DNA of 64,000 nt from Marinobacter bohaiensis (GTDB lineage: Bacteria > Pseudomonadota > Gammaproteobacteria > Pseudomonadales > Oleiphilaceae), in NCBI RefSeq assembly GCF_003258515.1, contig NZ_QGEH01000002.1, positions 248,001 to 312,000 on the forward strand, read 5' to 3'. The notes beneath the pieces were generated by a model. It ran no database searches and was not told the origin of the DNA. It saw nothing but the letters and a program-made list of their open reading frames with translations. Positions 42,839-61,468 of the stretch are shown here, piece by piece (the first letter of the stretch is position 1; each line of letters starts with the position of its first letter). Both the position numbers and the translations under genes were made by a program.

Positions 42839-42851
42839 GGCACAACCTAAA

Positions 42852-42865
42852 TACGTTATAACGTA
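42852..42865 (-). promoter_or_regulatory. Zur-type operator before the COG0523 gene
   Basis: Perfect 14-base palindrome TACGTTATAACGTA carrying the GTTATAAC core of gammaproteobacterial Zur sites, 14 bases upstream of the start codon. Confidence 0.7.
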
Positions 42866-42917
42866 ACCATATTATCACGATGCCCGTGGGCGGAACGACG
42901 CCACACCGGCGCGGGGA

Positions 42918-44651: not shown

Positions 44652-44723
44652 GCTATCTCCATCCAATCCCCGGCATCATATCAGGTCCGGCTTCTCAGAA
44701 TGAACGGAGGATCGTCGCAGTAC

Positions 44724-47498: not shown

Positions 47499-47602
47499 AG
47501 CCTATTCCCGGGTGGTCAGAACATCATTTGCATAGTAGCACAGCGCCGCTGTGCCGAAGCCTTGCCTGACAGGAATTGACAATCTATATTGGCACCGGAC
47601 GC

Positions 47603-47673
47603 GCGGGTGTAGCTCAATGGTAGAGCAGAGGCTTCCCAAGCCTACGACGAGGGTTCGATTCCCTTCACCCGCT
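47603..47673 (+). tRNA. tRNA-Gly (CCC)
   Basis: 71 bases without CCA. Acceptor GCGGGTG/CACCCGC, D-arm GCTC/GAGC, anticodon loop TTCCCAA giving CCC, T-arm GAGGG-TTCGATT-CCCTT. The first anticodon-stem pair (G27-A43) is mismatched. The discriminator T73 is followed by CAA rather than CCA, so the tail must be added after transcription, which is unusual for gammaproteobacteria. A frequent type of island insertion site. Confidence 0.93.
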
Positions 47674-48033
47674 CAAGCTTATCCCGCATCATGCTTACTG
47701 CCACGACACTTGGCCACCCCGGCCTGACAGGATTGCATGCAAATTGCTGCTCCTGACTATTCGGCTCGATGGCTCTCAAATCGTTTGCGCTTCCGCCTCC
47801 TGATACCCAAAAAAAGGCCTGTCCGGGCCAGCCTTCATTTGGTGCATTAATCAGTACACTGATCTTATTTGAGACATCGAACAGACACATCTCCCATTCA
47901 TAGCGTTATAGATAACCTGCGTTTTTAATTATAAAAATCAAAGATATAAATAAAAAAGAATTCAAATTTAAGCGACTGGCACAGCTTGTGTATGCAAAGT
48001 GTCTAAACACACAAATGCAAGCGTAAAGACGCC
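47674..48033. other. AT-rich leader region before the catabolic island
   Basis: 360 gene-free bases whose right half is strikingly AT-rich (around 47900-47975) against the GC-rich surround. It holds a candidate hairpin near 47812-47830 and one MarR-type operator at 47846-47864. A leftward frame from 47890 runs into the tRNA and ends VKGIEPSS, a well-known false ORF produced by glycine tRNA genes. Confidence 0.6.
47846..47864. promoter_or_regulatory. MarR-type operator 1
   Basis: ATTAATCAGTACACTGATC: inverted arms ATCAGT and ACTGAT around AC. The first 16 bases recur exactly at 59076-59091. Stands 170 bases before the DUF1116 start. Confidence 0.7.
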
Positions 48034-49146
48034 ATGACGCATATCCCTGAAAACAGGTACCGTCGGTTTGATACTCTTCGACTCGAAGGGGTGGTCCCGT
48101 TGGGCGAGGTAGTTCCCGATGTCCATGCCCGCTCGCTGTTACATGCTGGACCGCCCTATGCGGAAGGCCCTTTACCCGCACCGGTCCACAACGCGGCCAT
48201 CAACGCCGTTCTTTTCGAGCGTCTTGCAGACAATGCAAAAGACGCCGCGGCCATGCTCGAACGAGGGGATTTCAGGCTGAGTCCCGCCCAGGACTTCGGT
48301 GTCACCACACCGCTGGCCCAGGTGGTTTCGGCGTCGATGCCCGTATTCGTTATTGGCGATGGCGACCGTCACGTCTACGCCCCCCTCGTTGAGGGTGCAC
48401 CTCCAGCCCTACGTTTCGGCTCGCCTGACTCACGGTGCGTGGGTAACCTTCGACTGCATGCGCGTTTCGCTGCCATGGAGCTGAATGATTCGCTGGCCAA
48501 ACATCCCGTTCCACTCGCAAGCGTCATTGAATACGCCCTGGCCAACGGCAACGACTGCCATACCCTGACTGACCAGGCCAACCATGCGTTGCTGAGCCAC
48601 CTGAGCGGTCTGTCCCAAAGTTATCGCACGCTGCTGGAAAAGAGCCCGGGCTTCGTTCTACCGGTGCTGATGGGCGCCTGCGGCTGGCTGTTGCGTTACG
48701 GCAAGAGCGCTATCGCCGCGGGTGGCGGCAATGGCCGGGAGTTCGGACTGCGCCTGAAAAGCCAACGCCATTGGCTCACGACAGTCGCCGAACCGCCAAC
48801 GGGCCCAAGGTTCCCCGCTCAGGTTGGCAAGACTGCCCTTGGTGCAATCGGCGACAGCGCTGTCATCGACCTATGCGGCCTCGGTGGCCAGGCCCTCAAC
48901 TGCGCGCCCTCTCTGGTGAGCGAATGGCGGGGCCTGCTCCCTGATGACTTGGAAAGCCGTCACGCTACCGTGCTTGATGCAGACACCGGAATTGTCAGCC
49001 CCGCAGAGGTGGTTCGCCACCGAACACCGCCCATCATCAACCTCGCCCTGGTCGGAGCTGATCAGGAAGGCGGCATACTCGGTAAAGGCTTTTACCAGCC
49101 GCCACTGACCCTCTTCCAGCAGTTGACGGAAAGGATGGCCCAATGA
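48034..49146 (+). CDS. DUF1116 (AllG/YlbE-like) protein
   Basis: 370 residues matching the DUF1116 family along most of its length: LLHAGPP near the start, FRLSPAQDFGVTTPLAQVVSASMPVFVI, LRFGSPD, YALANGNDCHTLTDQANHALL, GGNGREFGLRL and DSAVIDLCGLGGQALNCAP. The E. coli member is AllG (YlbE), one of three subunits (with AllF/FdrA and AllH) of oxamate carbamoyltransferase, which splits oxalurate with phosphate. Neither partner is present here. Several positions usual in AllG are changed (Q-D-F-G-V-T for H-x-x-x-A-V-G; D-C-H-T-L for E-C-H-N-R), so the reaction may differ. First gene of the island, behind an AT-rich leader. Confidence 0.75.
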   Translation: MTHIPENRYRRFDTLRLEGVVPLGEVVPDVHARSLLHAGPPYAEGPLPAPVHNAAINAVLFERLADNAKDAAAMLERGDFRLSPAQDFGVTTPLAQVVSASMPVFVIGDGDRHVYAPLVEGAPPALRFGSPDSRCVGNLRLHARFAAMELNDSLAKHPVPLASVIEYALANGNDCHTLTDQANHALLSHLSGLSQSYRTLLEKSPGFVLPVLMGACGWLLRYGKSAIAAGGGNGREFGLRLKSQRHWLTTVAEPPTGPRFPAQVGKTALGAIGDSAVIDLCGLGGQALNCAPSLVSEWRGLLPDDLESRHATVLDADTGIVSPAEVVRHRTPPIINLALVGADQEGGILGKGFYQPPLTLFQQLTERMAQ

Positions 49147-49344
49147 CGATCCATGCCTTTCAACGTCACCGAAACCCTGGAGCGCCCCCGATTTTTCCCG
49201 TTCTGCGAGCTTACTTCCGAGGAAAGTTCCGGGCGGCTTGGTGATCGAATGTTTCCCGGTCTCAGGCTGGCCGGGGAAAACCAACAACAACCACGTTTGA
49301 GAAAGCGCCAACCAACGCATCGTAAAACACGAGAGGAACGACCC

Positions 49345-50496
49345 ATGTTAAGTACAAAGCGCTTACTGGCCTCGCTGCTGGTCGGTACCCTGGCATCCAC
49401 CTCAGCATTTGCGGCCGATCCCATCAAGATAGGGGTCTCACAGCCATTGACCGGTTCTGTGGCTGCATCGGGCAACTACGTAACGAACGGCGCGAAGATT
49501 GCGGCGGCCAAAATCAACGAAGACGGCGGTCTGCTGGGTCGCGAGGTGGAACTGATCATCGAGGACAATAAGTCCAACCCGCGAGAGGCGGTCAACGCCG
49601 CCGAGAAGCTGATCCTGCGGGATAAAGTGCCCGTCATCATGGGTGCCTGGAGTTCCACGTTCACCCTCGCCACCATGCCCAAACTGGAAGAGTACGGCGT
49701 GCCGATGGTGGTCGAGACCTCCTCATCGAGCAAGATCACCAAAGCGGGTAACCCCTGGGTGTTCCGGATCGCTCCCACATCCGAGATGGAGGCCCAGGCT
49801 TTCGCCAAGAAGCTGGCGACGTTCGATCCGCCGATCAGGAAGGTGGATTTCCTGTCCGTGAACAACGACTGGGGACTCGGCGCGTCCCAGGAGTTTGAGA
49901 AGATGTTCAAGGAACACGGTATCGAGATCGGTCGTAAGGAGACGGTCGCTCCCTCTGCTGTCGACCTGTCTGCTCAACTCTCGGCTTTGAAGGATACCGG
50001 CAGTGACACGCTGATCGTGACCTCCGGTGTCGAGCAACTCACCCTCGGTATCCGTCAGGCGGCGGAACAGCAACTGCCGCAGCGTATCGTCACCACGGGC
50101 GGGTCATTCCCTGAACCCCTGCTTGAATCGCCGGGTCCGGACGGCTACACCAGCACCCATCTTCTGTTCTTCTCCCCCTGGACAGCGGAAAGCGCGGTCT
50201 ATCCCGAGGTGGCAGAAGGCTTCGTCAAAGCCTGGAATGACGCCGGCTATTCATTCCCGGGGCTGAGCGAGGGGTTCCGTGGCTATGACGGCATCATGAC
50301 GATTGCCGCCGCCATCGAGGATGCCGGCACCGCCGAACCGGAGGCGATCCGTGATGCGCTCTGGGGCGTCGATGTGAAGGGCGTCAATGGCGACATCAGC
50401 TTCTTCAAGGACGGCCCGGAAGGCAAGGAAAGTGGCCAGAACGAGCCCAACGTCTACGTCGTCCAGCTCAAGGACGGCGAAGTTTCCGCTCAGTAA
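49345..50496 (+). CDS. Amide/branched-chain-amino-acid-type ABC substrate-binding protein
   Basis: 383 residues from ATG 49345 (GAGAGGAA upstream). Signal peptide LLASLLVGTLASTSAFA, then the type I periplasmic fold of LivJ/AmiC/UrtA proteins: IKIGVSQPLTGSVAASGNYVTNGAKIAAAKIN, GREVELIIEDNKSNPREAVNAAEKLI, PVIMGAWSSTFTLATMP. Members bind amino acids, amides, urea or aromatic acids. The ligand here should be the substrate of the nearby hydroxylase and amidohydrolase. A hairpin-forming stretch (near 49250-49282) lies in the gap behind the DUF1116 gene. Confidence 0.88.
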   Translation: MLSTKRLLASLLVGTLASTSAFAADPIKIGVSQPLTGSVAASGNYVTNGAKIAAAKINEDGGLLGREVELIIEDNKSNPREAVNAAEKLILRDKVPVIMGAWSSTFTLATMPKLEEYGVPMVVETSSSSKITKAGNPWVFRIAPTSEMEAQAFAKKLATFDPPIRKVDFLSVNNDWGLGASQEFEKMFKEHGIEIGRKETVAPSAVDLSAQLSALKDTGSDTLIVTSGVEQLTLGIRQAAEQQLPQRIVTTGGSFPEPLLESPGPDGYTSTHLLFFSPWTAESAVYPEVAEGFVKAWNDAGYSFPGLSEGFRGYDGIMTIAAAIEDAGTAEPEAIRDALWGVDVKGVNGDISFFKDGPEGKESGQNEPNVYVVQLKDGEVSAQ

Positions 50497-50572
50497 GCCG
50501 TAAAAACCATGCACGCGGGTCCGTTCAGCGGGCCCGTGTGTGACCGCCAGAACCATCTCCGGGAGCGGGCAA

Positions 50573-51445
50573 GTGGACGAAATCTTTCAACATATCGTCA
50601 ATGCCATGGTGCTGGGCTCGACCTATGCGCTGCTGGGCATTGGCCTGACGATTATCTTCGGCATCATGCGCGTGGTGAATTTCGCCCATGGTGAGCTGTA
50701 CACCCTGGGGGCCTATGTCGCGTACGGCATGGTGGCCCTCCTTAAACTGGACTTCTTTTCCTCCATCCTGGTCGCCGCCGCCGTCGGGATGCTGGTAGGC
50801 GCACTCATCGAGTTCGTTTTCCTGAGACGCAAGGACCTCAAGAACATCGATGAAGTGATGCTCATCATGATCGGCATCATGATTGTCATGCAGAACCTGG
50901 AACTGCTGGCCTGGGGAGGCGTCGCCAAGATCATTCCCACGCCCTTCTCACAGGATCCGATTTCGTTCGGTTCGATCTCGATTGCGCCCACACGCCTTTT
51001 CGTCTTCGGGGTGGCTGCAGTCCTCCTGTTTATTTTCTACCTGGGCATCGAACGAACCCGCTTCGGCCTGGCCATCCGTGCGACATTCCAGGACCAGGAT
51101 GCGGCGCGCATCGTCGGCGTGAACGTCAAGCGGATCTACACCCTGACCTTTGCCCTTGGCTCCGCCATGGCCGCCGTAGCCGGCGCGCTGCTGGCGCCCA
51201 TGTTCGTCGCCACCCCGATGATGGGCGACCTGGCGAGCCTGAAGGCGTTTGCCATCGTCATCCTCGGTGGACTGGGCAATCTCGGCGGTGCAGCGCTGGG
51301 CGGCTTCCTGCTGGCGTTTATCGAGGAGTTCGGGGCCAGCTACATTTCCAGCGCCTACCGTGACGCGTTCGGCTTCCTGGTCATCATTATCGTCATGCTG
51401 TTCCGCCCCCAGGGGCTGTTCTCGGTCAAGGAAAGGGTGGGCTGA
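50573..51445 (+). CDS. LivH-type ABC permease
   Basis: 290 residues from GTG 50573 (GGGAG upstream), giving the canonical opening DEIFQHIVNAMVLGSTYALLGIGLTIIFGIMRVVNFAHGE, here split for length. Eight or so membrane helices; the coupling segment is ERTRFGLAIRATFQDQDAARIVGVNVKRIY. Pairs with the LivM-type permease one base downstream. An earlier GTG at 50540 is possible but gives a non-standard extension. Confidence 0.9.
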   Translation: MDEIFQHIVNAMVLGSTYALLGIGLTIIFGIMRVVNFAHGELYTLGAYVAYGMVALLKLDFFSSILVAAAVGMLVGALIEFVFLRRKDLKNIDEVMLIMIGIMIVMQNLELLAWGGVAKIIPTPFSQDPISFGSISIAPTRLFVFGVAAVLLFIFYLGIERTRFGLAIRATFQDQDAARIVGVNVKRIYTLTFALGSAMAAVAGALLAPMFVATPMMGDLASLKAFAIVILGGLGNLGGAALGGFLLAFIEEFGASYISSAYRDAFGFLVIIIVMLFRPQGLFSVKERVG

Positions 51446-51446
51446 T

Positions 51447-52493
51447 ATGAACTGGACCCTGTTTTTCGTCTTTGTGGTTGTGCTCGGTCTGCTGCCCGTG
51501 GTCTGGCCCGACCCTTACGTGCTGTCGGTCATGGGCTCGGCGGGGATCATGATCATCGCGGCCATCAGCCTCAACCTGCTGCTGGGTTACACCGGGCAGC
51601 TATCGCTGGGCCACGCGGCCTTCTTCGGTATCGGCGCCTACACCAGCGCATTGATGTCGCTCGGTTTCAGCGTCGACCTGGGCTTCGGCCTGACCTGGCA
51701 GGTGGACGCCAAACCTGTCTGGATCGCCTTCCTCACGGCAATTGTCGTCACCGGCTTTTTCGGCTGGCTGGTGGGCAAGCTGGCGTTCAAGGTTCGCGGT
51801 GCCTATTTCGTGGTCATCACCATCAGTTTCGCCCAGGTCATGCGGATGATTTCGCTGAACTGGACCGACCTGACCGAAGGTCCCATGGGCCTGATCTCGA
51901 TTCCGGCACTGACACTCTGGGTGCCTGGGGAAGGCGTCATATCGCTCACCTCCAAGGCGGCCATCTACTGGCTGGTACTGGCCATCGGTATCCTGGCTTA
52001 CCTGCTGGTCGCGATGCTGGTCAATTCCCGCCAGGGTCGCGCCATGATTGCCCTACGTGAGAACGAGACCCTGGCCACCTCGGTCGGCATTCCCGTGACC
52101 TATTTCCTGGCCCTGGCCACCATTATCTCCGCGGCAATTGCCGGTGCCGCTGGTGGCCTCTACTCGCACACGGTCCGTATCATCGATCCCGACGTCTTCC
52201 TGTTCATCTACACGGTCACCATGGTGATCATGGTGATTGCCGGCGGTAAAGGCACCCTGGGCGGCCCGGTGATCGGCGGCCTGATCTTTGGCCTGATGCC
52301 CGAACTGCTGCGGGGTGTCGTCGGGCCGGAAGTCCAGTGGGTGATCTATGGCGTCACGATGATCGCGATCCTGCTCTTCCTGCCGAGAGGCCTGGTGCCT
52401 GCCTTTTATGACTTCATCGCCTGGCTGCGCAAACCGGGCGCGGAACAGCCACGCAAGTCCAAATCATCACTGGTCCAGGGAGCGAACTCATGA
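51447..52493 (+). CDS. LivM-type ABC permease
   Basis: 348 residues, about ten membrane helices. Family landmarks: SLNLLLGYTGQLSLGHAAFFGIGAY near the N-terminus, FKVRGAYFVVITISFAQVM, and the cytoplasmic loop SRQGRAMIALRENETLATSVGI. Start one base after the LivH-type stop; end overlaps the ATPase start by four bases. The tail (KPGAEQPRKSKSSLVQG) is basic and probably disordered. Confidence 0.9.
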   Translation: MNWTLFFVFVVVLGLLPVVWPDPYVLSVMGSAGIMIIAAISLNLLLGYTGQLSLGHAAFFGIGAYTSALMSLGFSVDLGFGLTWQVDAKPVWIAFLTAIVVTGFFGWLVGKLAFKVRGAYFVVITISFAQVMRMISLNWTDLTEGPMGLISIPALTLWVPGEGVISLTSKAAIYWLVLAIGILAYLLVAMLVNSRQGRAMIALRENETLATSVGIPVTYFLALATIISAAIAGAAGGLYSHTVRIIDPDVFLFIYTVTMVIMVIAGGKGTLGGPVIGGLIFGLMPELLRGVVGPEVQWVIYGVTMIAILLFLPRGLVPAFYDFIAWLRKPGAEQPRKSKSSLVQGANS

Positions 52494-53299
52494 ACAGCAC
52501 GACCGAAGCCGTCCAGCCGGGCCGCACCGTGCTGTCACTGGACGGTATTACCATGAAGATCGCCGGTCTGGTGGCACTGGACAACGTCACGTTCAGCATT
52601 CCGGCGGGCCAGATCGTCAGCCTGATCGGCCCCAACGGCGCCGGCAAGACCACCGCTTTCAATGTCATTTCCGGGTACATGCCGCCCACGGCCGGCAGCG
52701 TGCATCTGTTCGATGCCGATATCACCGGCCACTCGCCCCATAGCATTGCCTCCCGCGGACTGGTGCGCAGCTTCCAGCGAACCAGCGTGTTTGACGATCA
52801 AACGGTGTTCGACAACCTGCTGACCGCCTACCACCTGCAGGGCCGGACCTCACTGCTGCAATCGCTGCTCAGGCTAACGGCCTTCCGCAAGGAAGAAGCC
52901 GAACTGCGCACCAAGGTGGAGGGCATGCTGGATTTCCTCGACCTGCGCCATCGCGCCGATGAACGGGCAGGGTCACTGTCCTACGGCGAGCAGCGCATCC
53001 TCGGGGTTGGCATCGCCCTCGCCGCCAGTCCAAAGATCCTGCTGCTGGACGAGCCGGCGGCGGGACTGAATCCGTCCGAAACCGATGCCTTCAAGGCCAT
53101 GATCCGACGTATCGGCGATTCCGGCGTGACGGTGCTTCTGGTGGAGCACGACATGCACATGGTGATGTCGATTTCGGACCATATCGTCGTACTCAATCAG
53201 GGCAGGGTCATTGCCGAAGGGGATCCGCAGGCGATCCAGACCAACCCGGATGTCATCGAAGCCTATCTGGGCTCGGGGGTGAAACATGCTCAAGCTTGA
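52490..53299 (+). CDS. LivG-type ABC ATPase
   Basis: 269 residues. Walker A GPNGAGKTT, Q-loop RSFQRTSVFDDQTVFDNLL, signature LSYGEQRIL, Walker B ILLLDEPAAGLNPSE, switch LLVEHDMHMVMSISDHIVVLNQGRVIAEG: the wording of LivG/BraF. Overlaps LivM at the start and LivF at the end by 14 bases. Confidence 0.92.
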   Translation: MNSTTEAVQPGRTVLSLDGITMKIAGLVALDNVTFSIPAGQIVSLIGPNGAGKTTAFNVISGYMPPTAGSVHLFDADITGHSPHSIASRGLVRSFQRTSVFDDQTVFDNLLTAYHLQGRTSLLQSLLRLTAFRKEEAELRTKVEGMLDFLDLRHRADERAGSLSYGEQRILGVGIALAASPKILLLDEPAAGLNPSETDAFKAMIRRIGDSGVTVLLVEHDMHMVMSISDHIVVLNQGRVIAEGDPQAIQTNPDVIEAYLGSGVKHAQA

Positions 53300-54005
53300 A
53301 AACGTAACGGTCTGCTACGGCGCCACCGTGGCGGTGGACAACGTATCCATGGACGTGAATGAAGGGGAGTTCGTGACCCTGATCGGCGCCAATGGCGCCG
53401 GCAAGTCCACCACGCTCCGGGCGATCAGTGGCCTTGAGCCCGTGCGCAGCGGCCGCATCCTGTTCGAGGGGGAACCGATCCAGAACGCCGCCCCGCAGGA
53501 CATTATCCGCCTGGGCATCGCCCATTGCCCGGAAGGCCGGCGGGTCTTTCCCCAACTGACGGTTCGGGAAAACCTGGAGATGGGCGCCTTCCGGCGCTTC
53601 GACCGCCAGGGCATCAAAACCGACATCGACCGCATGCTGGGCATGTTCCCGCGCCTGGCCGAACGCATCCGCCAGTCCGCGGGGACGCTCTCCGGCGGCG
53701 AACAGCAAATGCTGGCTATCGCCCGGGCCTTGATGTCGCGGCCCCGCCTGGTGATGTTCGACGAGCCGTCCCTGGGTCTGGCGCCGAACTTCGTCGAGCA
53801 GGTCTTCAAACTGGTTTCGGAAATCTGCGAGGGCGGGACCACGGTCCTGATGGTCGAGCAGAATGCCTACGCCGCCCTGGAGCTGTGTGACCGGTCGTAC
53901 CTGCTCAGTACCGGCGAAGTCATGCTCAGTGGGACCGCTGAAGAGATGCTGGCCAACCCGGATATCCGGCGGATCTACCTCGGAGGGGAAGCGGCCAGCG
54001 CCTGA
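53286..54005 (+). CDS. LivF-type ABC ATPase
   Basis: 239 residues. Walker A GANGAGKST, LGIAHCPEGRRVFPQLTVRENLEMGA (typical of LivF), signature LSGGEQQML, Walker B LVMFDEPSLGLAPN and VEQNAYAALELCDRSYLL. Closes the importer operon, ending at a two-way terminator shared with the MarR gene. Confidence 0.92.
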   Translation: MLKLENVTVCYGATVAVDNVSMDVNEGEFVTLIGANGAGKSTTLRAISGLEPVRSGRILFEGEPIQNAAPQDIIRLGIAHCPEGRRVFPQLTVRENLEMGAFRRFDRQGIKTDIDRMLGMFPRLAERIRQSAGTLSGGEQQMLAIARALMSRPRLVMFDEPSLGLAPNFVEQVFKLVSEICEGGTTVLMVEQNAYAALELCDRSYLLSTGEVMLSGTAEEMLANPDIRRIYLGGEAASA

Positions 54006-54012
54006 CACGAAC

Positions 54013-54033
54013 GGCCCGCCACGCGGGCCCTTA
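54013..54033. terminator. Terminator between importer and MarR genes
   Basis: GGCCCGC (54013-54019) and GCGGGCC (54023-54029), loop CAC, followed rightward by CTTATT. The 7-bp stem lies between convergent stop codons. Confidence 0.75.
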
Positions 54034-54044
54034 TTACCTTGGCC

Positions 54045-54545
54045 TCAAGGCAACTTCAGTGACGCCCGTCCATGATCGTTATTGGCGCTGACGATCTTGC
54101 TCATATAGCGGATAAAACGTTCGCGCTCCGCTTTGGTCAACGGCTCGATCGTGCGTTCGTGGGCGCGGCGGGCGCTATCCCCAACCTCGGCGAGCAGCGA
54201 CTCTCCGGCAGGCGTCAGGCGGGCCAGTTGACGGCGGGCGTCTTCCGTACATTTGCGCCGCTCGATCCAGCCAGCCTTATCGAGTCTTCGCAGCACTTCC
54301 GTCGTCGTGGCGCGGTCGATACCGACCCGCTGACCCAGCCGTTTCTGATCCAGCTCGTCCCCCTGCAAAGCCGTCAGCACACTGTACTGGACCGGCGTTA
54401 GCCCATAGGCTTCGCACTCATCGTGGAACAACGCCACGTGAATCTGGTGAAGGCGGCGGATCAGGAAGCCGGGACGCTCCGCGAGAATACCGAGGCGATC
54501 CTCCGGCGCCATCTGCGATGCACTGGCCTTGGCTGTCTTTGGCAT
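54045..54545 (-). CDS. MarR-family regulator of the catabolic island
   Basis: 166 residues. Winged-helix core: GLTPVQYSVLTALQGDELDQKRLGQRVGIDRATTTEVLRRLDKAGWIERRKC with wing TEDARRQLARLTPAGE. The N-terminal 15 residues are polar and not conserved. It is of the HpaR/aromatic-responsive style. As the only regulator in the island it is the natural owner of the three ATTAATCAGTnnACTG sites at 47846, 59076 and 59119. No such site is seen before its own start. Confidence 0.9.
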   Translation of the reverse strand: MPKTAKASASQMAPEDRLGILAERPGFLIRRLHQIHVALFHDECEAYGLTPVQYSVLTALQGDELDQKRLGQRVGIDRATTTEVLRRLDKAGWIERRKCTEDARRQLARLTPAGESLLAEVGDSARRAHERTIEPLTKAERERFIRYMSKIVSANNDHGRASLKLP

Positions 54546-54642
54546 GGGCGGGACCTCTATTTCCTTGTCGAGCCGGATCTAACGGGCGGTCATTGTTACC
54601 TATACCGGCCCGCCAGTGCCAATTAGCAAGTGGATATCGCCG

Positions 54643-55779
54643 TTATAGCAGGCGTCTCAGCCATCGCCTTAAGGCCATCCAGGCCAGCTGGAAAAGCCCC
54701 AGGGATCGGGTCTCCAGAGGCGCCTCACCGGCCATGTGACGGTCAAAATTAGCCTGGAACTGTTCAATCAGCACACTAACGATTTCTTCCACCAGGCCGC
54801 CCCGACTGAACTGGGCCAGAGCCCCACTCATCTCGAAACTGATGGCGACCGTCATCTGGCATTGGGCCTCACCCGCCGCCTCCAGCTGAAACGACAGACT
54901 GCCCTTCGCTCTGGAGTTGGAACGGCTGTCCGAACCCTGGCCGTCCACCCGGCCTTGCCAGGTGTCATCGTCGAACGTCGCGGTCCCTTCACCCGCAATA
55001 CGTGCAGCCACGGGGCCCAGCTTGACGTTGAAGAAACCGGCCAACGTACCGTCGTCGTCCAGACGGGTCAGCTCCGCGCCGGGCAAACAGGCGACGACGG
55101 AGGGCAGCTCGTCACGCAGGACGGTCCAGACGGATGCCGGCGGATGCGGCAGCTCGAACGTCGACTCAATGCGACGCCCATTACCGTCCACCTGACTACG
55201 GGTTGCGGCCCGGCCAGCGGCAGACGCGCCTTCCTCGACCGGTATGGCATCGAGATCACCGAGATCCAGCGTTTCCAGCGCCCCCAATGGGGCGACTTCG
55301 GGTTTCTCGTCCTGATAACCGGCAAGCACGCGCTGGATCGCCCGTACGATACCGACGTAGCCGGTGCACCGACATAGATTGCCGCTCAATTCATAGCGGA
55401 TTCGCTCGTCGTCGATCGTCTGTCCGGCAAACCGGCGGACGATATCCTGGGCCGTAATCAACATGCCCGGGGTGCAAAAACCGCATTGCAACGCATGCTC
55501 TGCCGAAAAAGCCTCACGCAGACGAATCATCACCGAATCGTCGTCGTAGGCCTCGATCGTGCGGATGTTGCTGCCCTCGCAACCTACGGCCCACGCCAGG
55601 CAAGAGCGTACCGGACGCCCATCCCTGACCACCGTACAGGCCCCACAGATGCCCTGCTCACAGCCCACGTGGGTGCCGGTCAACAACAGATCCTCCCGCA
55701 CGAAATCGGCGAGGTTACGCCGCGGCTCGACATCCAGGGGCACCGCCCGGTCGTTGATGGTCACGACTTTACTGTTCAT
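54643..55779 (-). CDS. [2Fe-2S] subunit of a molybdenum hydroxylase fused to a CoxG/SRPBCC domain
   Basis: 378 residues. Residues 1-160 are a complete CoxS/XdhA-type small subunit: plant-type cluster Cys40, Cys45, Cys48, Cys60 and the second cluster Cys99, Cys102, Cys136, Cys138. After a linker, residues about 195-350 are an SRPBCC (CoxG) domain (ESTFELPHPPASVWTVLRDELPSVVACLPGAEL). The end is amphipathic and basic (LAWMALRRWLRRLL), a possible membrane tether. CoxG is normally a separate protein that recruits CO dehydrogenase to the membrane; fusion would keep it in fixed ratio. Last of the three hydroxylase genes, overlapping the FAD subunit by 11 bases. Confidence 0.88.
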   Translation of the reverse strand: MNSKVVTINDRAVPLDVEPRRNLADFVREDLLLTGTHVGCEQGICGACTVVRDGRPVRSCLAWAVGCEGSNIRTIEAYDDDSVMIRLREAFSAEHALQCGFCTPGMLITAQDIVRRFAGQTIDDERIRYELSGNLCRCTGYVGIVRAIQRVLAGYQDEKPEVAPLGALETLDLGDLDAIPVEEGASAAGRAATRSQVDGNGRRIESTFELPHPPASVWTVLRDELPSVVACLPGAELTRLDDDGTLAGFFNVKLGPVAARIAGEGTATFDDDTWQGRVDGQGSDSRSNSRAKGSLSFQLEAAGEAQCQMTVAISFEMSGALAQFSRGGLVEEIVSVLIEQFQANFDRHMAGEAPLETRSLGLFQLAWMALRRWLRRLL

Positions 55780-56584
55780 GGGTCTGACTCCGCTTCAGCG
55801 CCTTGTTCATCACATGCAGGCGAACCGTGATATCCGCCTCCTCCATATCGGGGTACCGTTCGGCCAAGGCGCCGCGCCACGACGCCTGATCGAGCGCATC
55901 GCCGCCCGCCAGCAGCAAGGGCGCTCCCGGCAGCGCGCCGAAAACGACGCGTTGCCCATCCCCGGTCGCGGCACAAAACACCGCCGCCATGGCGTGGGCC
56001 AGCTCGCCGGTCTTGCGGCATAGCTTGAAGTAACCAAAGCGGCTATCGGCGGCCACATCCGGAACAAACACCGCGATCAGCAACTCGTCGGGTGATAACG
56101 CCGTCTGCATGGCGCCGGTCACGAAATCATCGAGGTACATGCGCCGCCGGGCACTTCCCCGCGATGAGGGTCGCTGGAGGATGACCTGTGCGCCCAGGGC
56201 CGTCAGCGTGGTGATCCAGTCCGCAGCCGGGTCGGCATGGGCGAGGCTGCCACCAATGGTGCCGCGACTGCGCACGGCTCGATAGGCAATGCCCCGCGCA
56301 ATCCGCGGCAGGATACCGCCGGTGTTATCCGGCACGAGTCCGTCTTCAATCTCGGCGTGGGTCACTGCCGCGCCGATCAGGACGCCTCCGGTTATTCGTT
56401 GGCAGCCACGCAATTCCCGCAGGATGGCGACGTCCAGCAACGCGTCCGGCCGCGCCAGTCGTAGATTGAGCATGGGACCGAGGGACTGACCACCCGCGAT
56501 GGGTCGCACCTCCCCGGCAGTCATCTTCTGGCAGGCATCGGCAAGATCATCTGCCCGGTGATAGTCAAACGCCTGGGGTTTCAT
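55769..56584 (-). CDS. FAD-binding subunit of a molybdenum hydroxylase (CoxM-like)
   Basis: 271 residues. FAD domain of the vanillyl-alcohol-oxidase type: FDYHRADDLADACQKM at the start, the FAD loops AGGQSLGPMLNLRLARP and TIGGSLAHADPAADW, then the CO-dehydrogenase-flavoprotein C-terminal domain. It passes electrons from the iron-sulfur clusters to the acceptor. Start overlaps the large-subunit stop by four bases. Confidence 0.92.
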   Translation of the reverse strand: MKPQAFDYHRADDLADACQKMTAGEVRPIAGGQSLGPMLNLRLARPDALLDVAILRELRGCQRITGGVLIGAAVTHAEIEDGLVPDNTGGILPRIARGIAYRAVRSRGTIGGSLAHADPAADWITTLTALGAQVILQRPSSRGSARRRMYLDDFVTGAMQTALSPDELLIAVFVPDVAADSRFGYFKLCRKTGELAHAMAAVFCAATGDGQRVVFGALPGAPLLLAGGDALDQASWRGALAERYPDMEEADITVRLHVMNKALKRSQTHEQ

Positions 56585-58983
56585 AATGCGGCCTCCACGG
56601 GGCTGGCCTCTTCCTGGGGCGTAACAGAGGCCCGGGCAATCGCCCGCAGCAGACGCTGCGGTGTCACCGGCACCTCACAGACTTCCGCGCCGAGCGGACG
56701 AAGGGCGTCGTTGACCGCGTTGACGATGGCTGCGGGCGGACCAATCGCACCGCTTTCACCAATGCCCTTCTGACCGAACTCGGTATAGGGCGACGGGGTC
56801 TCCATGTGATCGATCTCCACAGCCGGTACTTCGGTCGCCCCCGGCAAGAGGTAATCCGCCAGCGTCGAGGCGAGAGGCTGGCCATTCCGATCAAACGGCA
56901 TTTCCTCATACAGGGCGGTGCCGATGCCCTGGGCGATGCCGCCGTAGACCTGGCCATCCACGATCATCGGGTTGACCAGAACCCCGCCGTCCTCGACCAC
57001 CACATAATCAAGAATCTCGGTGCTGCCAAGCTCCGGATCCACGGCGACCACGACCGCATGGCATGCGTAGCTGAAGGTGCCGCTGTCCCGGCCGGTCTTG
57101 TACCCCAGGGTGACTTCCAGTCCACCCGAATCGACGTTGTCGGGCAGGTGCTGCGGTTTGAGATACCAGGTACGCGCCACATCATGCAGGCTGACGGTCC
57201 CGTGACCCTGGGTGGTCGATACCACGCCGTCAGCGACCGTGACTGAGTCGACCGGCACATCCAGCAGGCGGGCTCCGATGTTGGCCACTCGCTCTGCCAG
57301 CGTTCGGCAGGCCCTGGCCACCGCACCGCCCGCCATAACCATGCAACGGGACCCCCAGGTGCCGGTGGAATACGGTGTCAAAGCCGTGTCACCGTGAATG
57401 ACCCGGACACGGTCCGTGTCGATGCCGAGTATTTCCTCGGCCACCTGGGCCAATGTGGTTTCCAGGCCCTGGCCGTGGGAATGGATACCCACCCGCACCT
57501 CAAGGGCGCCATCAGGGGTCAGGCGCACGACAGCCTGCTCATGGCCGGGCACCATGGGAATGCCCCATCCGGCATAGACCGACGTACCGTGGGCGGATTG
57601 TTCGCAGAAGATGGCCATGCCGACACCGATCAGCCGACCGTCTTCCTCGGGCGTCTTCTGGCGCTCGCGCACCGCCTTGAGGTCGACGGCCTCCACCGCA
57701 CGACGCAGGCATTCGGGGTAGTCGCCACTGTCGAAATGCTTACCGGTAATATTGTCGAACGGCATGGATTCCGGCCGGATCAGGCATTCCATACGCACAT
57801 CTGAAGGCTCACGTCCCGCCGCCCTTGCCAGCGCATCCATGGTCAGTTCCATGGCAAAACAGACCCCGGTTCGGGCCACACCGCGGTATGGCAGGATCGG
57901 CGGTTTGTTGGTCGCCGTGGATGTGGTACTGCAACGGTAAGCCTTGAAATCGTAGGGCCCGGGCAGGATGCTGGCGACCTGGGCACCTTCCAGACAGGCA
58001 GAAAACGGGTAGGCGGAATACGCACCGGCGTCCACCACGGCTGTCGTGTCCAGGGCCAACAGGCGTCCCTGTTCGTCACCGTAGGCCGTGACGTGATAAT
58101 GGTGCTCGCGGCAATTGGCGTTGGCCGTCAGCTGTTCGCGGCGATCCTCAAGCCAGCGGATCGGACGGCGCAGATGCATTGCCAGCCAGGCGGCGCAGAC
58201 TTCCTCCGGCAACAGAATACCTTTGTAGCCGAAACCGCCGCCGACATCCGGGGCCACCACGCGAATCTGCTCGTGACTCAATCCCAGGCAATCGCACAGG
58301 CCCGTGCGGACGATATGAGGCATCTGGGTCGAGGTGTAGACCTGCAGCTGCTCCAGACGACTGTCCCAAAACGCCACCACGCCGCGCCCCTCCATCGGCG
58401 ACATGCATTGACGTGCGGTACGGTACTTCCGCTCGATCTTGATGGCAGCCTCCCGCCGGACCGACTCGATATCCCCCTCCACCAGCGTGTGCTGGAATAC
58501 ATTGTCGCCCCAGTGGTCATGCACCAGCGGCGCCTCCGGCTTGAGGGCGTCGAGCATGTCGGACACCGCGGGCAGGGTTTCGATATCGAGATCGATGGCA
58601 TCCACCAGGTCTTCGGCGGCGGCCCGGTTCGGGGCGACGCAGGCGGCGATCAATTCACCGACATAACGCACCTTGTCTCCGGCAAGGATCGGTTGCTCCG
58701 ATGACTTGAAGCCGGGCAGGGCGGAGTCCGCGAGAATACCCTTAACACCCGCCAGGTCGCCCGCCGCGAAGACCCGATCGTCGGCGCCGGGTGGCTTGGA
58801 CAACGACTTCAGTTTTCCGTGTGCCACCGGGCTACGCAGGAATGCCAGTTCAAGCATGCCGGGCATGGCTATGTCGCCCACATACTCGCCCCGCCCTCTC
58901 ATATAGCGGTCGTCTTCCTTTCGCACCTTCCTGGCCCCGACACCGCGGGTTACCGGGATTCTGTCAGCTTGCTCGTCTTGCAC
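56581..58983 (-). CDS. Molybdopterin-binding large subunit of a molybdenum hydroxylase
   Basis: 800 residues, xanthine dehydrogenase/CoxL superfamily. Moco loops seen: VVAPDVGGGFGYKG, the active-site loop PYRGVARTG, YSTGTWGSR, and the catalytic glutamate in QKGIGESGAIG. The active loop is not the AYxCSFR of true CO dehydrogenase, so CO is excluded as substrate; the enzyme more likely hydroxylates an N-heterocycle or aldehyde. GTG start at 58983 with GGAGGG upstream. First gene of the leftward operon; divergent from the amidohydrolase across two MarR-type operators. Confidence 0.92.
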   Translation of the reverse strand: MQDEQADRIPVTRGVGARKVRKEDDRYMRGRGEYVGDIAMPGMLELAFLRSPVAHGKLKSLSKPPGADDRVFAAGDLAGVKGILADSALPGFKSSEQPILAGDKVRYVGELIAACVAPNRAAAEDLVDAIDLDIETLPAVSDMLDALKPEAPLVHDHWGDNVFQHTLVEGDIESVRREAAIKIERKYRTARQCMSPMEGRGVVAFWDSRLEQLQVYTSTQMPHIVRTGLCDCLGLSHEQIRVVAPDVGGGFGYKGILLPEEVCAAWLAMHLRRPIRWLEDRREQLTANANCREHHYHVTAYGDEQGRLLALDTTAVVDAGAYSAYPFSACLEGAQVASILPGPYDFKAYRCSTTSTATNKPPILPYRGVARTGVCFAMELTMDALARAAGREPSDVRMECLIRPESMPFDNITGKHFDSGDYPECLRRAVEAVDLKAVRERQKTPEEDGRLIGVGMAIFCEQSAHGTSVYAGWGIPMVPGHEQAVVRLTPDGALEVRVGIHSHGQGLETTLAQVAEEILGIDTDRVRVIHGDTALTPYSTGTWGSRCMVMAGGAVARACRTLAERVANIGARLLDVPVDSVTVADGVVSTTQGHGTVSLHDVARTWYLKPQHLPDNVDSGGLEVTLGYKTGRDSGTFSYACHAVVVAVDPELGSTEILDYVVVEDGGVLVNPMIVDGQVYGGIAQGIGTALYEEMPFDRNGQPLASTLADYLLPGATEVPAVEIDHMETPSPYTEFGQKGIGESGAIGPPAAIVNAVNDALRPLGAEVCEVPVTPQRLLRAIARASVTPQEEASPVEAAL

Positions 58984-59075
58984 CTTCCATCCCTCCGGAA
59001 AATGGCTTCCGCAATCAAAAAATTTCGTCTTCTAAAACGGCAACTTGCTGTAAATAGTAAAAATCAATCCAGTAA

Positions 59076-59094
59076 ATTAATCAGTACACTGTGT
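59076..59094. promoter_or_regulatory. MarR-type operator 2
   Basis: ATTAATCAGTACACTGTGT; identical to operator 1 over its first 16 bases. Confidence 0.7.
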
Positions 59095-59118
59095 ATTTTT
59101 ATGAAATCACTGTATAAC

Positions 59119-59137
59119 ATTAATCAGTGTACTGCAT
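59119..59137. promoter_or_regulatory. MarR-type operator 3
   Basis: ATTAATCAGTGTACTGCAT; same arms as operators 1 and 2 with GT in the centre instead of AC. Confidence 0.65.
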
Positions 59138-59215
59138 ATTTTTTTGAGCCTATCGGCACCTGGGACGGTACAAGGCACGATCCATGCCTGCCGTCGGAGA
59201 AAGAGGAGAATGCTT

Positions 59216-60478
59216 ATGCAAGGCAGACCCTACGATCTGCTGTTGAAAGGGGGTCGCGTCGTCGATCCTGCGCAACGCCTCGACCGCACACTGGACGTCG
59301 CCATCAAGGACGGGCGGATTGCGGCGCTTGAGACCGGCCTGGCACCGGAGCTGGCCAACGAGGTCATCGACGCTGACGGTAAGCTGGTCACCCCTGGCCT
59401 GATCGATACCCATGCCCATATCTTCGAGCACGTCACCGGTCGTTTCGGGCTCAATCCCGACAGCTGTGGCGTCCGTGCCGGCGTTTCCACGCTGGTCGAT
59501 CAGGGCGGTCCCAGCCTGATGACCCTGCCTGCATTCCGCCACTATGTGGCAGAGCCTTCCGCCAGTCGCGTGCTGTGCTTCCTGTCCGCCTATCTAGTGG
59601 GCGGCCTTGAAGGGCACCACTACCCGCAACTCTATAGTCCCGAGGACGTCGACGTTAAGCGCACCATCGAGATCGGTCTCGCCAATCGCGACCTGGTCAA
59701 GGGCATCAAGGCGCATGCGGAGGTCGGCGGCAAGTCCCGCTGGGGCATGGAAGTGATCAAGCAGGCCCGGGACATCGCCCGGGGTATTGGCGTGCCGCTA
59801 TATATCCACCTGGGCCAGCTTTGGCCGGAGGCGGGCAAGGGGATCGACGACCCCGATACGGTGATCGAAGAACTGGTTCCGATCATGCAGGAAGGCGATA
59901 TTCTTGCCCATCCCTTTACCCGTCATCCGGGAGGGTTCATCTCCTGCAAGACCGGCGAACTGCATCCCATCATCCGCGAGGGGCTTGACCGTGGCTTGCG
60001 GGTCGATGTCGGCCATGGCTCCCATTTCAGTTTCGAGATGGCGCAGAAGGTGATCGAAGCCGGCATCCTGCCCAATACGCTGGGCGCCGACATGCACGGC
60101 TATAACACCGACGCCGGTCAGGTAAAGGCGACCAACCGGGAGTCCAACCCGTTCTTCGGCAAGACCCGGTTCTGCCTGACCCATGCCATGACGGAGCTGC
60201 TGGCCCTGGGCATGCCGCTGAAGGACGTGATCGCCACAGCCACCAGCAATGCCGCCGGAATGCTGGGGATCGACGACGAAGTCGGCAGCCTCACGGTCGG
60301 CAAGGTTGCGGATGTTGCGGTGTTGGAGCGGGAAACCGGACGTTTCACACTGTCGGACAACAGCGGCGTGACCGTGGCGGCAACGGAGGCGATTCGCCCG
60401 GTGTTCTCGCTGCGCGAAGGCATCCGCTTTGACGTCGATAGCCCCGTGGTCGTCGAGCCGATGGACCTCGCAAGCTGA
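59216..60478 (+). CDS. Metallo-dependent amidohydrolase/deacetylase
   Basis: 420 residues from ATG 59216 (AGAGGAG seven bases upstream; the ATG six bases earlier is too close). Amidohydrolase superfamily barrel: GLIDTHAHIFE with His66 and His68, the likely carboxylated lysine in GIKAHAEVGG, YIHLGQ, ILAHPFTRH and the closing acid in GADMHGYNTD, so both metals should bind. It belongs to the dihydroorotase-like group annotated amidohydrolase/deacetylase. It would open a cyclic amide or remove an N-acyl group, possibly the product of the adjacent hydroxylase. Three bases separate it from xdhC. Confidence 0.85.
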   Translation: MQGRPYDLLLKGGRVVDPAQRLDRTLDVAIKDGRIAALETGLAPELANEVIDADGKLVTPGLIDTHAHIFEHVTGRFGLNPDSCGVRAGVSTLVDQGGPSLMTLPAFRHYVAEPSASRVLCFLSAYLVGGLEGHHYPQLYSPEDVDVKRTIEIGLANRDLVKGIKAHAEVGGKSRWGMEVIKQARDIARGIGVPLYIHLGQLWPEAGKGIDDPDTVIEELVPIMQEGDILAHPFTRHPGGFISCKTGELHPIIREGLDRGLRVDVGHGSHFSFEMAQKVIEAGILPNTLGADMHGYNTDAGQVKATNRESNPFFGKTRFCLTHAMTELLALGMPLKDVIATATSNAAGMLGIDDEVGSLTVGKVADVAVLERETGRFTLSDNSGVTVAATEAIRPVFSLREGIRFDVDSPVVVEPMDLAS

Positions 60479-60481
60479 GCC

Positions 60482-61468
60482 ATGGACGATGCGTCGGTTC
60501 TGCAGGCTGCCCTGGCGTTCCACCGGCGGGATGGTGGCGTGGCCCTGGTAACCCTGATCAATCGCCAGGGTTCATCGCCCCGCCCGCTGGGCAGCCAGAT
60601 GGCAGTATCGGCGGAGGGAGAATGTGTAGGCAGTCTCACCGGCACCGGTTGCGCGGAGCAACTGATCATCCATGAGGCGCAGGCCGCTCTGACTGCCGGA
60701 GAAAACCGGATCCTGCGCCTGGGTGAAGGATCTCCCTACATCGACATTCGCCTGCCCTGTGGCGCGGGCATCGACCTGCATATCGACACACAGATCGACG
60801 CTGACGTATTGGCTGAGCTAGTCAGGGCTCACGAAGCACGTCATCCCGCTGCGCTGGAAACCGATCGGGACAAGGGAATCCAGCGCTGCACAGCATGCCT
60901 TTCAGACAAACCACTCGCGTCACGCTCTTTCCGACGCTGGCTCTATCCCCCATTGCGTCTTGTGGTGATCGGCCAAGGCGACATTGCCATAGCCCTGAGC
61001 TGTATTGCTATCGCCAGTGGCTACGCCGTCGACATGATCTCACCGGATCAGGCCACGCTGCTGAGCGCCGGTGAAGCAGGGGCCCAAACGACCCGCTTGC
61101 CCACGGCCAATCTCTTCTGCGCGCCGATGCTCGATGCCTGGACTGCCGCCGTCACCCTTTTTCATGACCATGAATGGGAGCTGCCCATCCTCAATACCCT
61201 TCTCAACAGTCCCTGTTTTTATCTGGGCGCGCTGGGAAGTCGCAGTACCCATGCCCAGCGGCTGTCAGCCCTTCATGATTTGGGATGGATCAACGCCGGG
61301 CGGCGTCTGCATGGCCCCGTTGGCCTGGATATCGGGGCACAAACGCCAAATGAAATCGCCCTGTCTATTCTTGCTGAAATAACGCAGAGCTTCCGGGCAA
61401 CGGAACGTCCACTGCTGGAAATCGGGCCAGATTTCGTGCTTAACACCCAAACCACTACGTGCTGGTAG
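60482..61468 (+). CDS. xdhC: XdhC/CoxI-family molybdenum-cofactor maturation protein
   Basis: 328 residues. N-terminal XdhC/CoxI domain (VALVTLINRQGSSPRPLGSQMAVS, GSLTGTGCAEQLI where SGGCVE is usual) and a C-terminal Rossmann-like domain (LRLVVIGQGDIAIALSCIAIASGY, then FYLGALGSRSTHAQRLSAL). XdhC proteins bind molybdenum cofactor and hand the sulfurated form to their hydroxylase. Presence here supports that the enzyme at 54643-58983 is active and of the sulfurated xanthine-dehydrogenase type. Its end overlaps the convergent desaturase gene by 14 bases. Confidence 0.9.
   Translation: MDDASVLQAALAFHRRDGGVALVTLINRQGSSPRPLGSQMAVSAEGECVGSLTGTGCAEQLIIHEAQAALTAGENRILRLGEGSPYIDIRLPCGAGIDLHIDTQIDADVLAELVRAHEARHPAALETDRDKGIQRCTACLSDKPLASRSFRRWLYPPLRLVVIGQGDIAIALSCIAIASGYAVDMISPDQATLLSAGEAGAQTTRLPTANLFCAPMLDAWTAAVTLFHDHEWELPILNTLLNSPCFYLGALGSRSTHAQRLSALHDLGWINAGRRLHGPVGLDIGAQTPNEIALSILAEITQSFRATERPLLEIGPDFVLNTQTTTCW

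Follow-up and report, generated by a model that had tools for sequence, protein, structure and literature searches.

The window, a 64,000-nucleotide stretch of Marinobacter bohaiensis DNA, carries beside a glycine tRNA gene a gene block that we read, with a probability of about 0.45, as a MarR-controlled catabolic module that was gained by horizontal transfer and acts on a small cyclic ureide or imide, in the likeliest case one with a hydantoin- or imidazolone-type ring. New here are the insertion of the block, the putative operators of what looks like a single regulon, the recurrence of the module in other genomes, the lack of partners for its AllG protein, and the oxalurate/oxamate genes of relatives.

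The gene block and its insertion

Profile scans found the named genes of the island, all with open frames.

47603..47674, + strand: tRNA-Gly(CCC), left border of the insertion (tRNA call)
47675..61535, no strand: inserted segment, ~13.9 kb (same-genus comparison)
47846..47861, + strand: operator 1 (putative), ATTAATCAGTACACTG, upstream of AllG (motif search)
48034..49146, + strand: stand-alone AllG of 370 aa (PF06545, formerly DUF1116), proposed to decarbamoylate a ureido acid
49153..50496, + strand: periplasmic substrate-binding protein, Peripla_BP_6 (start uncertain, possibly further downstream)
50540..51445, + strand: ABC permease, LivH type (profile scan)
51249..52493, + strand: ABC permease, LivM type (frame overlapping LivH; probably starts near 51447)
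52490..53299, + strand: ABC ATPase, LivG type (profile scan)
53286..54005, + strand: ABC ATPase, LivF type (profile scan)
54045..54545, - strand: MarR-family regulator, proposed operator binder (profile scan)
54643..55779, - strand: CoxS-type [2Fe-2S] subunit with fused CoxG (SRPBCC) domain and hydrophobic/basic C-terminal tail
55769..56584, - strand: CoxM-type FAD subunit (profile scan)
56581..58983, - strand: CoxL-type molybdopterin subunit (top PDB match by sequence, quinoline 2-oxidoreductase, 1t3q_B)
59076..59091, + strand: operator 2 (putative), ATTAATCAGTACACTG, between CoxL and amidohydrolase (motif search)
59119..59134, + strand: operator 3 (putative), ATTAATCAGTGTACTG, 43 bp from operator 2 (motif search)
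59144..60478, + strand: PRK09237 (cog3964)-type amidohydrolase (likely start ATG near 59210 behind AGAGGAG)
60482..61468, + strand: maturation factor for molybdenum enzymes, XdhC/CoxI type (unmatched at this position in G152)

Comparison of six same-genus genomes supports an insertion of the 13.9-kb block. The site is empty in four of them (only 31-60 bp at the same spot in G149, G150, G151 and G153), and is occupied in the genome under study and in G152, the latter without XdhC. This bears out the label "island" given in an earlier note, which had overlooked the insertion itself. The GC content of the inserted segment is 61.4%, versus 64.8% in 40001-47600. The glycine tRNA that the same note named as a border is indeed present; the "desaturase" named on the other side is a gene of the fatty-acid-hydroxylase family (PF04116), the right-hand neighbour of the block. 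The hallmarks of an integrative element at a tRNA gene were not found: there was no direct repeat of the tRNA end in the window (last 18 tRNA bases, 3 mismatches allowed), and no integrase family was matched among the island genes scanned.

The importer families, Peripla_BP_6 and BPD_transp_2, are of the Liv/HAAT type. The NCBIfam models of the urea transporter UrtABCDE stay far under their cut-offs (UrtA 70.9 bits for 492.75, UrtC 119.6 for 296.2), so that an ABC importer is present as had been stated, its "amide type" being a resemblance only. PDB matches of the binding protein and of MarR gave no hint of a ligand.

The molybdenum hydroxylase predicted with its XdhC factor was recovered as CoxLMS-type subunits and an XdhC/CoxI-type protein. 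It shares the three subunits and the XdhC factor with CoxLMS-type hydroxylases (quinoline 2-oxidoreductase, CO dehydrogenase-like and nicotine-pathway enzymes), whereas the fusion of CoxS to CoxG sets it apart, as do scores that fall short of the cut-offs set by NCBIfam for its CO, xanthine, glyceraldehyde and 4-hydroxybenzoyl-CoA models. Two identities were rejected on these grounds. For an aerobic CO dehydrogenase, CoxL reached 559.8 and 482.8 bits against cut-offs of 950 and 991.15, and its loop reads PYRGVARTG; that of form I CO dehydrogenase is AYRCSFR. For a xanthine dehydrogenase, all three subunits missed the XdhABC cut-offs (392.9/780, 58/310 and 147.5/217 bits). The amidohydrolase, also named beforehand, clears the PRK09237 model NF006689 of NCBIfam (390.5 vs 371 bits). 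Its metal-binding motifs align with those of 2ogj, one of the PRK09237 proteins of known structure (2ogj, 8je0, 8wzy, 2ics), from which the island copy differs in being tied to AllG and an oxidase. We know of no established physiological substrate for PRK09237 (cog3964) amidohydrolases.

Putative operators and transcription units

The 16-bp operator occurs in exactly three copies genome-wide at up to 1 mismatch, all of them at the island's two promoter regions. By orientation the genes form three transcription units: AllG with the importer, CoxLMS with MarR, and the amidohydrolase with XdhC. Operators common to both promoter regions argue for co-regulation, and the island resembles a single regulon, in keeping with the earlier view that one MarR governs it; this MarR would be the protein binding the three putative operators. 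Among 31 MarR-bearing related loci, CAGTNNACTG is absent from 27; it occurs twice in L027 and also in L028, L099 and L106, and is operator-like only in L027 and L099. A promoter scan (4 found, 4.0 expected) and a terminator scan (5 found, 9.6 expected) were both uninformative.

AllG, its relatives and their neighbours

The DUF1116 protein reported before matches PF06545, now named AllG in Pfam, over the full profile length (97.6 bits for a cut-off of 27). According to the portions of PMC11326118 available, the E. coli homologue was identified in 2024 as a subunit of oxamic transcarbamylase (OXTCase), and AllG is one of the three subunits needed for AllFGH. The island protein is like E. coli AllG in this full-length match and probably in N-carbamoyl amide chemistry; unlike it, it sits on another tree branch, beside an oxidase, in a genome where no AllH/DUF2877 (PF11392) was matched, the E. 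coli control being positive. PF00549 matched only two adjacent genes of this genome, whose frames (393 and 291 aa) are in line with SucC/SucD, which they probably encode, and no AllF-like gene was found there beyond this pair. The island was rejected as a complete AllFGH: AllG is present, but neither AllH/DUF2877 nor a separate AllF/FdrA gene was found in the genome. That AllG's known partners are absent had escaped the earlier note.

In the tree, the four AllGs linked to FdrA group on a branch of their own (support 100/100, length 0.94), and the window AllG lacks an N-terminal stretch of ~60 residues present in L015 and L023. At conserved spots, the stand-alone AllGs compared read GNG where the FdrA-linked ones read RNG, and mostly AQ where L015 and L023 read CH. 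The tree has 78 rows: loci whose AllG frame exceeded 520 aa or was not found were excluded, and Azospirillum, Caballeronia, Pacificitalea, Rhodococcus, L020, L024 and the four FdrA-linked rows were added. The sole clear fold match listed for AllG (Foldseek, VIA-align) is 3clq, the lack of others proving nothing; to our knowledge this solved relative has no assigned function.

Related loci were picked with one 10-residue pattern, [GPK][AL][ITL]GDS[AG]V[IV]D, 80 being kept of 132 confirmed AllG relatives, so that they are not an even AllG sample. As the pattern (core GDS[AG]V[IV]D) cannot match the four FdrA-linked AllGs, which read GDSAITE, the absence of FdrA from the 80 loci (no AllF match by tblastn at 1e-5) and the invariance of GDSxVxD are partly selection effects; exceptions to the latter are Ruegeria L014 (GDSAVVE) and Paracoccus L011 (GDSAIVD). 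Some loci are shortened by contig ends, e.g. L031, L052, L082, L086 and L090. Sequence set A3 consists of 54 sequences: that of the window AllG plus 53 from the 80 loci.

The neighbourhood check suggested earlier, for DUF1116 together with CoxL and amidohydrolase, gave CoxL (at least 50%) in 34 of the 80 loci, accompanied by the amidohydrolase in 31, MarR in 25 and Liv- or His-type permeases in 28. CoxL, amidohydrolase and AllG stand together in loci of alpha-, beta- and gammaproteobacteria. Genera with a CoxL-bearing module come from soil and sea and include Cupriavidus, Paraburkholderia, Azospirillum, Marinobacter and Sneathiella. An amidohydrolase or amidase is found in 68/80 loci, and Rieske genes in 32/80. 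Locus L028 has the order MarR-amidohydrolase-HpxZ-amidase-AllG with a Rieske gene and a reductase, and L030 has CoxLMS at that position; we read this as an oxidation step that may be swapped yet kept. A phosphoribosyltransferase family, present in 12/80 loci, suggests nucleobase-like chemistry, and L033 carries an NMT1/THI5-type binding protein; these two observations fit pyrimidines at least as well as a hydantoin-type ureide, and count against the latter.

Pattern-free searches found AllG in 8 of 163 genomes of the GTDB family, one of which, G121 (L023), is FdrA-linked, and above cut-off at seven places in 5 of 369 class genomes. These places are L132 and L133, with FdrA alongside, L137, of the same type at a contig end, L134, which is closest to the AllG of E. 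coli and shows no FdrA match over its 3.6 kb, the window's own, L135, where amidohydrolase, MarR and AllG are adjacent, and L138, of the Rieske-cluster type. An eighth candidate, L136, was rejected, being under the cut-off and reading as an aldehyde dehydrogenase. As a clustering control in place of random loci, CoxL was counted across the family: at E<=1e-150 it was found in 3/163 genomes (at most 6 candidates scored per genome), in all three ~7 kb from AllG. G097 has AllG-amidohydrolase-XdhC and no CoxL at this threshold.

Some relatives carry genes that recall the Klebsiella hpx uric-acid branch (HpxW, HpxY, HpxZ). HpxZ occurs in 11/80 loci (the Caballeronia copy has 185 bits for an equivalog cut-off of 135), a PRK08310/AtzE-like amidase in 13/80 (one only 27% identical; Caballeronia, 526 for a cut-off of 391), and GGT in 3/80, plus Azospirillum and G097. 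Against the PDB, the Azospirillum GGT matched two 5hft chains (326.8 and 276.0 bits) before the next entry (248.2); for that of G097, 2nlz (184.9 bits) came slightly over 5hft (176.0), which makes the HpxW link weak for the Marinobacter-type GGT. The GGT of the genome under study (C7:77735-79282) is 40% identical to the Azospirillum copy and 72% to that of G097, and may be an ordinary GGT; it adjoins a TauE gene that shares 88% identity with the one next to AllG in G097. Unlike the hpx branch, the island has none of HpxZ, AtzE-like amidase and GGT within 47603-61468, a molybdenum hydroxylase and AllG being added; nor was HpxZ (PF11533) matched in its genome. The relatives' HpxZ, AtzE-like amidase and HpxW-like protein point to oxalurate/oxamate, a link that had also been overlooked.

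Proposed pathway and its alternatives

We infer the following reactions and the substrate class. The Liv-type ABC system would import the compound, and CoxLMS, matured by XdhC, would hydroxylate a nitrogen-adjacent carbon of the ring, with the fused CoxG domain perhaps passing electrons to quinone. Ring opening by the amidohydrolase would yield a ureido acid, e.g. ureidoglycolate or oxalurate, from which the stand-alone AllG, without AllF and AllH, may remove the carbamoyl group; the resulting oxamate-like amide would be hydrolysed by an HpxW-like or AtzE-like amidase. Against this scheme, no separate dehydrogenase for a second oxidation to the parabanate level was found in the island. The chain of import, oxidation, ring opening and carbamoyl or amide cleavage had been put forward in the earlier note, short of the three points noted above as missed, and comparative evidence favours it: CoxL, amidohydrolase and AllG are kept together in three proteobacterial classes, and the putative operators are shared. 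Carbamoyl cleavage by the DUF1116 protein fits a homologue that is an oxamic-transcarbamylase subunit in E. coli, as the available part of PMC11326118 describes it.

The gene combination had been said not to match the uric acid, allantoin, nicotinate, caffeine or CO pathways, and literature searches on DUF1116 (PMC12625717, PMC3364942), barbiturate, oxalurate/parabanate and FdrA turned up no described pathway for the whole set. The auxin (iad) locus of Variovorax is also MarR-regulated, with an ABC binding protein and ring oxidation followed by hydrolysis; unlike the island, it has no amidohydrolase of the PRK09237 type among the genes described, the word "amidohydrolase" occurring in neither text as available (PMC12633357, PMC9613470), and auxin degradation was rejected. 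Riboflavin/lumichrome catabolism was rejected because enzyme types alone are in common with the portion available (PMC12746152). Reaction modules for purines and pyrimidines offer a parallel for amidohydrolase action followed by carbamoyl removal, but other carbamoyltransferases are treated in the part seen (PMC4016543).

The main rival, which we consider unlikely, is oxidative pyrimidine catabolism: CoxLMS would be a uracil/thymine-type dehydrogenase giving barbiturate, the amidohydrolase an alternative barbiturase, and AllG would convert ureidomalonate to malonamate, amidases then yielding malonate. The phosphoribosyltransferases and the L033 binding protein speak for it, as does the FdrA-linked AllG of Aminobacter (L015), which adjoins a ring-opening amidohydrolase. 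That amidohydrolase, however, was matched in 0/80 loci (flanks of at most 10 kb, pattern-picked sample), HpxZ and HpxW-like genes point to oxalurate/oxamate, and replacement by a Rieske oxygenase with an SDR would better suit an sp3 ring carbon. An oxygenase with an SDR, followed by an amidohydrolase or amidase, is what one would expect where a lactam is converted to an imide, then to a half-amide and finally to a diacid. Such lactam or cyclic-imide catabolism (e.g. of the 2-pyrrolidone or succinimide type), in which AllG would hydrolyse a half-amide instead of acting on a ureido group, is rated slightly lower than the pyrimidine route: the residue differences between stand-alone and FdrA-linked AllGs would allow a changed reaction, but the demonstrated activity found for the family is carbamoyl transfer by AllFGH, and the HpxZ/HpxW-like neighbours are ureide enzymes.

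We give little credit to two independent functions sharing a place and an operator, in which some compound would be taken up and assimilated while CoxLMS oxidizes something unrelated. Three separate transcription units and the CoxL-free G097 cluster would agree with it; the amidohydrolase in 31 of 34 CoxL-bearing loci, the operators confined to the island, and a rare CoxL that lies close to AllG in each of the three family genomes that have it would not. A complete oxamic transcarbamylase in which SucD or another CoA-ligase protein replaces AllF is highly improbable, for although AllF belongs to the Ligase_CoA family, of which the genome has two adjacent genes, AllH is missing, and AllG is set apart by its branch and its shorter N-terminus.

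Beyond the cyclic-ureide or imide module itself, we tentatively propose, at odds clearly below even, that there is an undescribed, widespread oxidative cyclic-ureide pathway in alpha-, beta- and gammaproteobacteria, with interchangeable oxidases (molybdenum hydroxylase, Rieske, 2-oxoglutarate oxygenase), and that the stand-alone AllG branch could be a new class of carbamoyl-cleaving enzyme acting without AllF, AllH or phosphate. With a branch that lacks partners and lies near an amidohydrolase or amidase in 68/80 loci, mostly near an oxidase, a fold of unknown function becomes a testable enzyme. The 16-bp operator offers a direct means of searching for the inducer, and the CoxL-bearing module, given its presence in genera from soil and sea, may point to a nitrogen source that has been overlooked.

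Gene content and insertion of the island

The genome carrying the island measures 4.76 Mb and shares its GTDB family with Marinobacter; the island genes form the following row.

47603-47674: tRNA-Gly(CCC), left end of the row
48034-49146: AllG (former DUF1116), right of tRNA-Gly
Right of AllG, up to 54005: five Liv-type ABC genes
54045-58983, minus strand: MarR, CoxS-CoxG, CoxM, CoxL
59144-61468, plus strand: amidohydrolase and XdhC
Right of XdhC: fatty-acid-hydroxylase family gene

Judging from an AGAGGAG ahead of it, the amidohydrolase probably starts near 59210. CoxS and CoxG are fused (54643-55779), with a hydrophobic/basic tail that is possibly a membrane anchor; they are two separate genes in several Burkholderiales loci.

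Among six genomes of the genus, the distance from the Na/H-exchanger gene to the hydroxylase gene was 3.1 kb in four (G149, G150, G151, G153), 16.8 kb in the present genome and 15.6 kb in G152, the block being present in the last two only. On alignment to the four empty sites, which hold 31 to 60 bp in its place, the shared left flank stopped at the tRNA end (47674) and homology resumed at 61524-61537. No integrase was found among the block genes by gene-family scan, nor a repeated tRNA end by window search; the block was therefore gained or, less simply, lost several times, and is not a recognisable integrative element. Its GC content is 61.4%, versus 64.8% for window positions 40001-47600. 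XdhC had no match at the island's place in G152. At 61455-61535, homology to the empty sites begins only within the 3′-terminal part of the hydroxylase gene, whose last codons were therefore probably replaced at the insertion junction.

The sequence ATTAATCAGTRYACTG, with palindromic core CAGTRYACTG, is common to the region 5′ of AllG (one copy, 47846) and the CoxL/amidohydrolase intergenic region (two copies 43 bp from each other, at 59076 and 59119). When up to 2 mismatches were tolerated, the window contained these 3 copies, and 100 shuffles none; with one mismatch allowed, the whole genome yielded the same 3 only, and the reversed control 0. Variants occur at matching places in G152 and Marinobacter F3R08. 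CAGTNNACTG was absent from 27 of the 31 MarR-bearing loci, as expected if every regulator has its own site. The island looks like one regulon, with its MarR as the putative operator-binding protein.

Recurrence among AllG loci

A profile built from nine AllGs (A1) was run on the species-genome collection and gave 132 confirmed relatives. Eighty, picked with one AllG sequence pattern, were analysed, their loci being scored by BLAST with reference proteins. CoxL (at least 50% identity) was found in 34 of the 80 loci, and these 34 also carried an amidohydrolase (31), Liv or His permeases (28), MarR (25), PhyH (13), a PRK08310-type amidase (10) or HpxZ (8). Rieske genes were present in 32/80 loci and an amidohydrolase or amidase in 68/80, several of the other 12 being short contigs. 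The earlier note had described an import-and-degrade gene set beside tRNA-Gly; this is confirmed and strengthened.

None of the 80 loci in this pattern-picked sample had a match to FdrA, AllH, carbamate kinase or the L015 ring-opening amidohydrolase, nor to E. coli AllF, AllH or carbamate kinase, a result partly built in because the pattern cannot match FdrA-linked AllGs. Pattern-free searches detected AllG in 8 of 163 genomes of the GTDB family, one of them FdrA-linked (L023), and above cut-off in 5 of 369 genomes of the class, at 7 places. Of these, FdrA accompanies AllG at L132 and L133, and amidohydrolase plus MarR do so at L135; L138 belongs to the Rieske-cluster type, whereas L134 and L137 lie close to the FdrA-linked forms, with no FdrA match within their short stretch. 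Based on these searches, the two AllG branches both exist, and AllG itself is rare. A close CoxL was found in 3/163 family genomes, about 7 kb from AllG in each. G097, of the Marinobacter family, has AllG, amidohydrolase (84%) and XdhC (L020/L131) and no close CoxL.

AllG and the proposed pathway

According to excerpts of PMC11326118, E. coli AllF, AllG and AllH form oxamic transcarbamylase (oxalurate + phosphate to oxamate + carbamoyl phosphate), and single deletions abolish oxamate formation. A profile search of the present genome found no AllH, and its PF00549 matches are limited to a probable SucC/SucD pair. By composition, the island AllG is not an AllFGH enzyme. The AllG tree sets the four FdrA-linked AllGs off from the remaining 74 rows as a branch of their own (100/100, length 0.94). 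Most of these 74 were pattern-picked; sampling is one-sided, support high all the same. His37, Glu62, His176, Asn233 and the GDS motif are near-invariant in both types. Stand-alone AllGs have GNG, versus RNG in the four FdrA-linked ones, and mostly AQ, versus CH in L015 and L023, L024 being an exception. The AlphaFold model, confident with a pLDDT of 96, aligns with 3clq, a structure to which no function has been assigned. The island AllG may act on carbamoyl groups.

The best chain we can infer would begin with substrate import. CoxLMS, whose best PDB relative by sequence is quinoline 2-oxidoreductase, would then hydroxylate a ring carbon, electrons perhaps leaving to quinone via CoxG, in keeping with the role of such proteins. 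The amidohydrolase, whose motifs align with those of 2ogj and presumably share their metal-binding roles, would open the ring; AllG would decarbamoylate the product, and GGT or an amidase would hydrolyse the amide. Hydantoin, for instance, would give 5-hydroxyhydantoin, then ureidoglycolate or oxalurate. The interpretation in the earlier note is partly supported.

L028 and L030 share MarR, amidohydrolase, HpxZ, amidase and AllG, L030 with CoxLMS and L028 with a Rieske oxygenase and reductase instead. L024 combines Rieske, reductase, AllG and amidohydrolase; L033 has amidohydrolase-AllG-SDR without CoxL, and a protein of the family that in L029 is a 2-oxoglutarate oxygenase. Mapping these labels onto the AllG tree takes 11 changes for CoxL and 7 for Rieske. 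These exchanges suggest that the oxidase is replaceable, and that the constant chemistry would therefore be "oxidise, hydrolyse, AllG".

A second conserved AllG cluster (about 5000-12500 in L061, L065-L068, L070, L072, L074-L076 and L078) comprises a Rieske oxygenase, reductase, NAD-dependent epimerase-type protein, ~200-aa protein (its Paracoccus copy matches no Pfam family), AllG and amidase, with TRAP or LysR genes near in several loci. In Ruegeria (L014:10653-11911), two neighbouring ~210-aa proteins without Pfam match lie between the Rieske gene and AllG; relatives occur in L080, L084 and L089. A Rhodococcus ruber megaplasmid (L017:219-15496) carries two AllG genes, Rieske, reductase, formate dehydrogenase and malate synthase G, which suggests formate and glyoxylate as products. 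An Aminobacter plasmid (L015:10151-22570) carries FdrA, AllG, ring-opening amidohydrolase, carbamate kinase, DUF2877 and a BMP-type ABC, possibly an FdrA-type pathway acting on a barbiturate or cyanurate-like ring.

Substrate clues and novelty

Relatives' loci add proteins of the oxalurate/oxamate branch: HpxZ (the Caballeronia copy passes the NCBIfam equivalog), an AtzE-like amidase (passing PRK08310) and GGT. The Azospirillum cluster is headed by TauE and GGT, and this GGT matches PDB 5hft, which we take to be Klebsiella oxamate amidohydrolase HpxW, well above other GGTs. In G097, a GGT-TauE pair lies directly 5′ of AllG-amidohydrolase-XdhC; relatives of both (72% and 88%) lie outside the island in the present genome. 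There, L130:6903-13625 (G000:C7) has an oligopeptide-type ABC, GntR-FCD regulator, GGT and TauE in one row. As far as the excerpted sources go, PMC5270733 cites the Klebsiella oxamate amidohydrolase and its structure paper, PMC12625717 calls HpxY oxalurate amidohydrolase in its text and otherwise in a figure legend, and the reference list of PMC3364942 holds a 1965 title on parabanic acid inducing oxamate transcarbamylase.

On the contrary side, the G097 GGT fits 2nlz slightly better than 5hft, HpxZ was not found in the present genome, and a phosphoribosyltransferase family, which fits nucleobases, occurs in 12/80 loci. It lies near AllG or the amidohydrolase at L063:11473-12219, L049:12634-13359, L069:7049-7846 and L081:11280-12167.

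The module belongs to a known kind, MarR-regulated N-heterocycle catabolic genes, but has a stand-alone AllG, of which no description was found in the open-licence literature searched. The island is a good, directly testable unknown, not a categorically new system.
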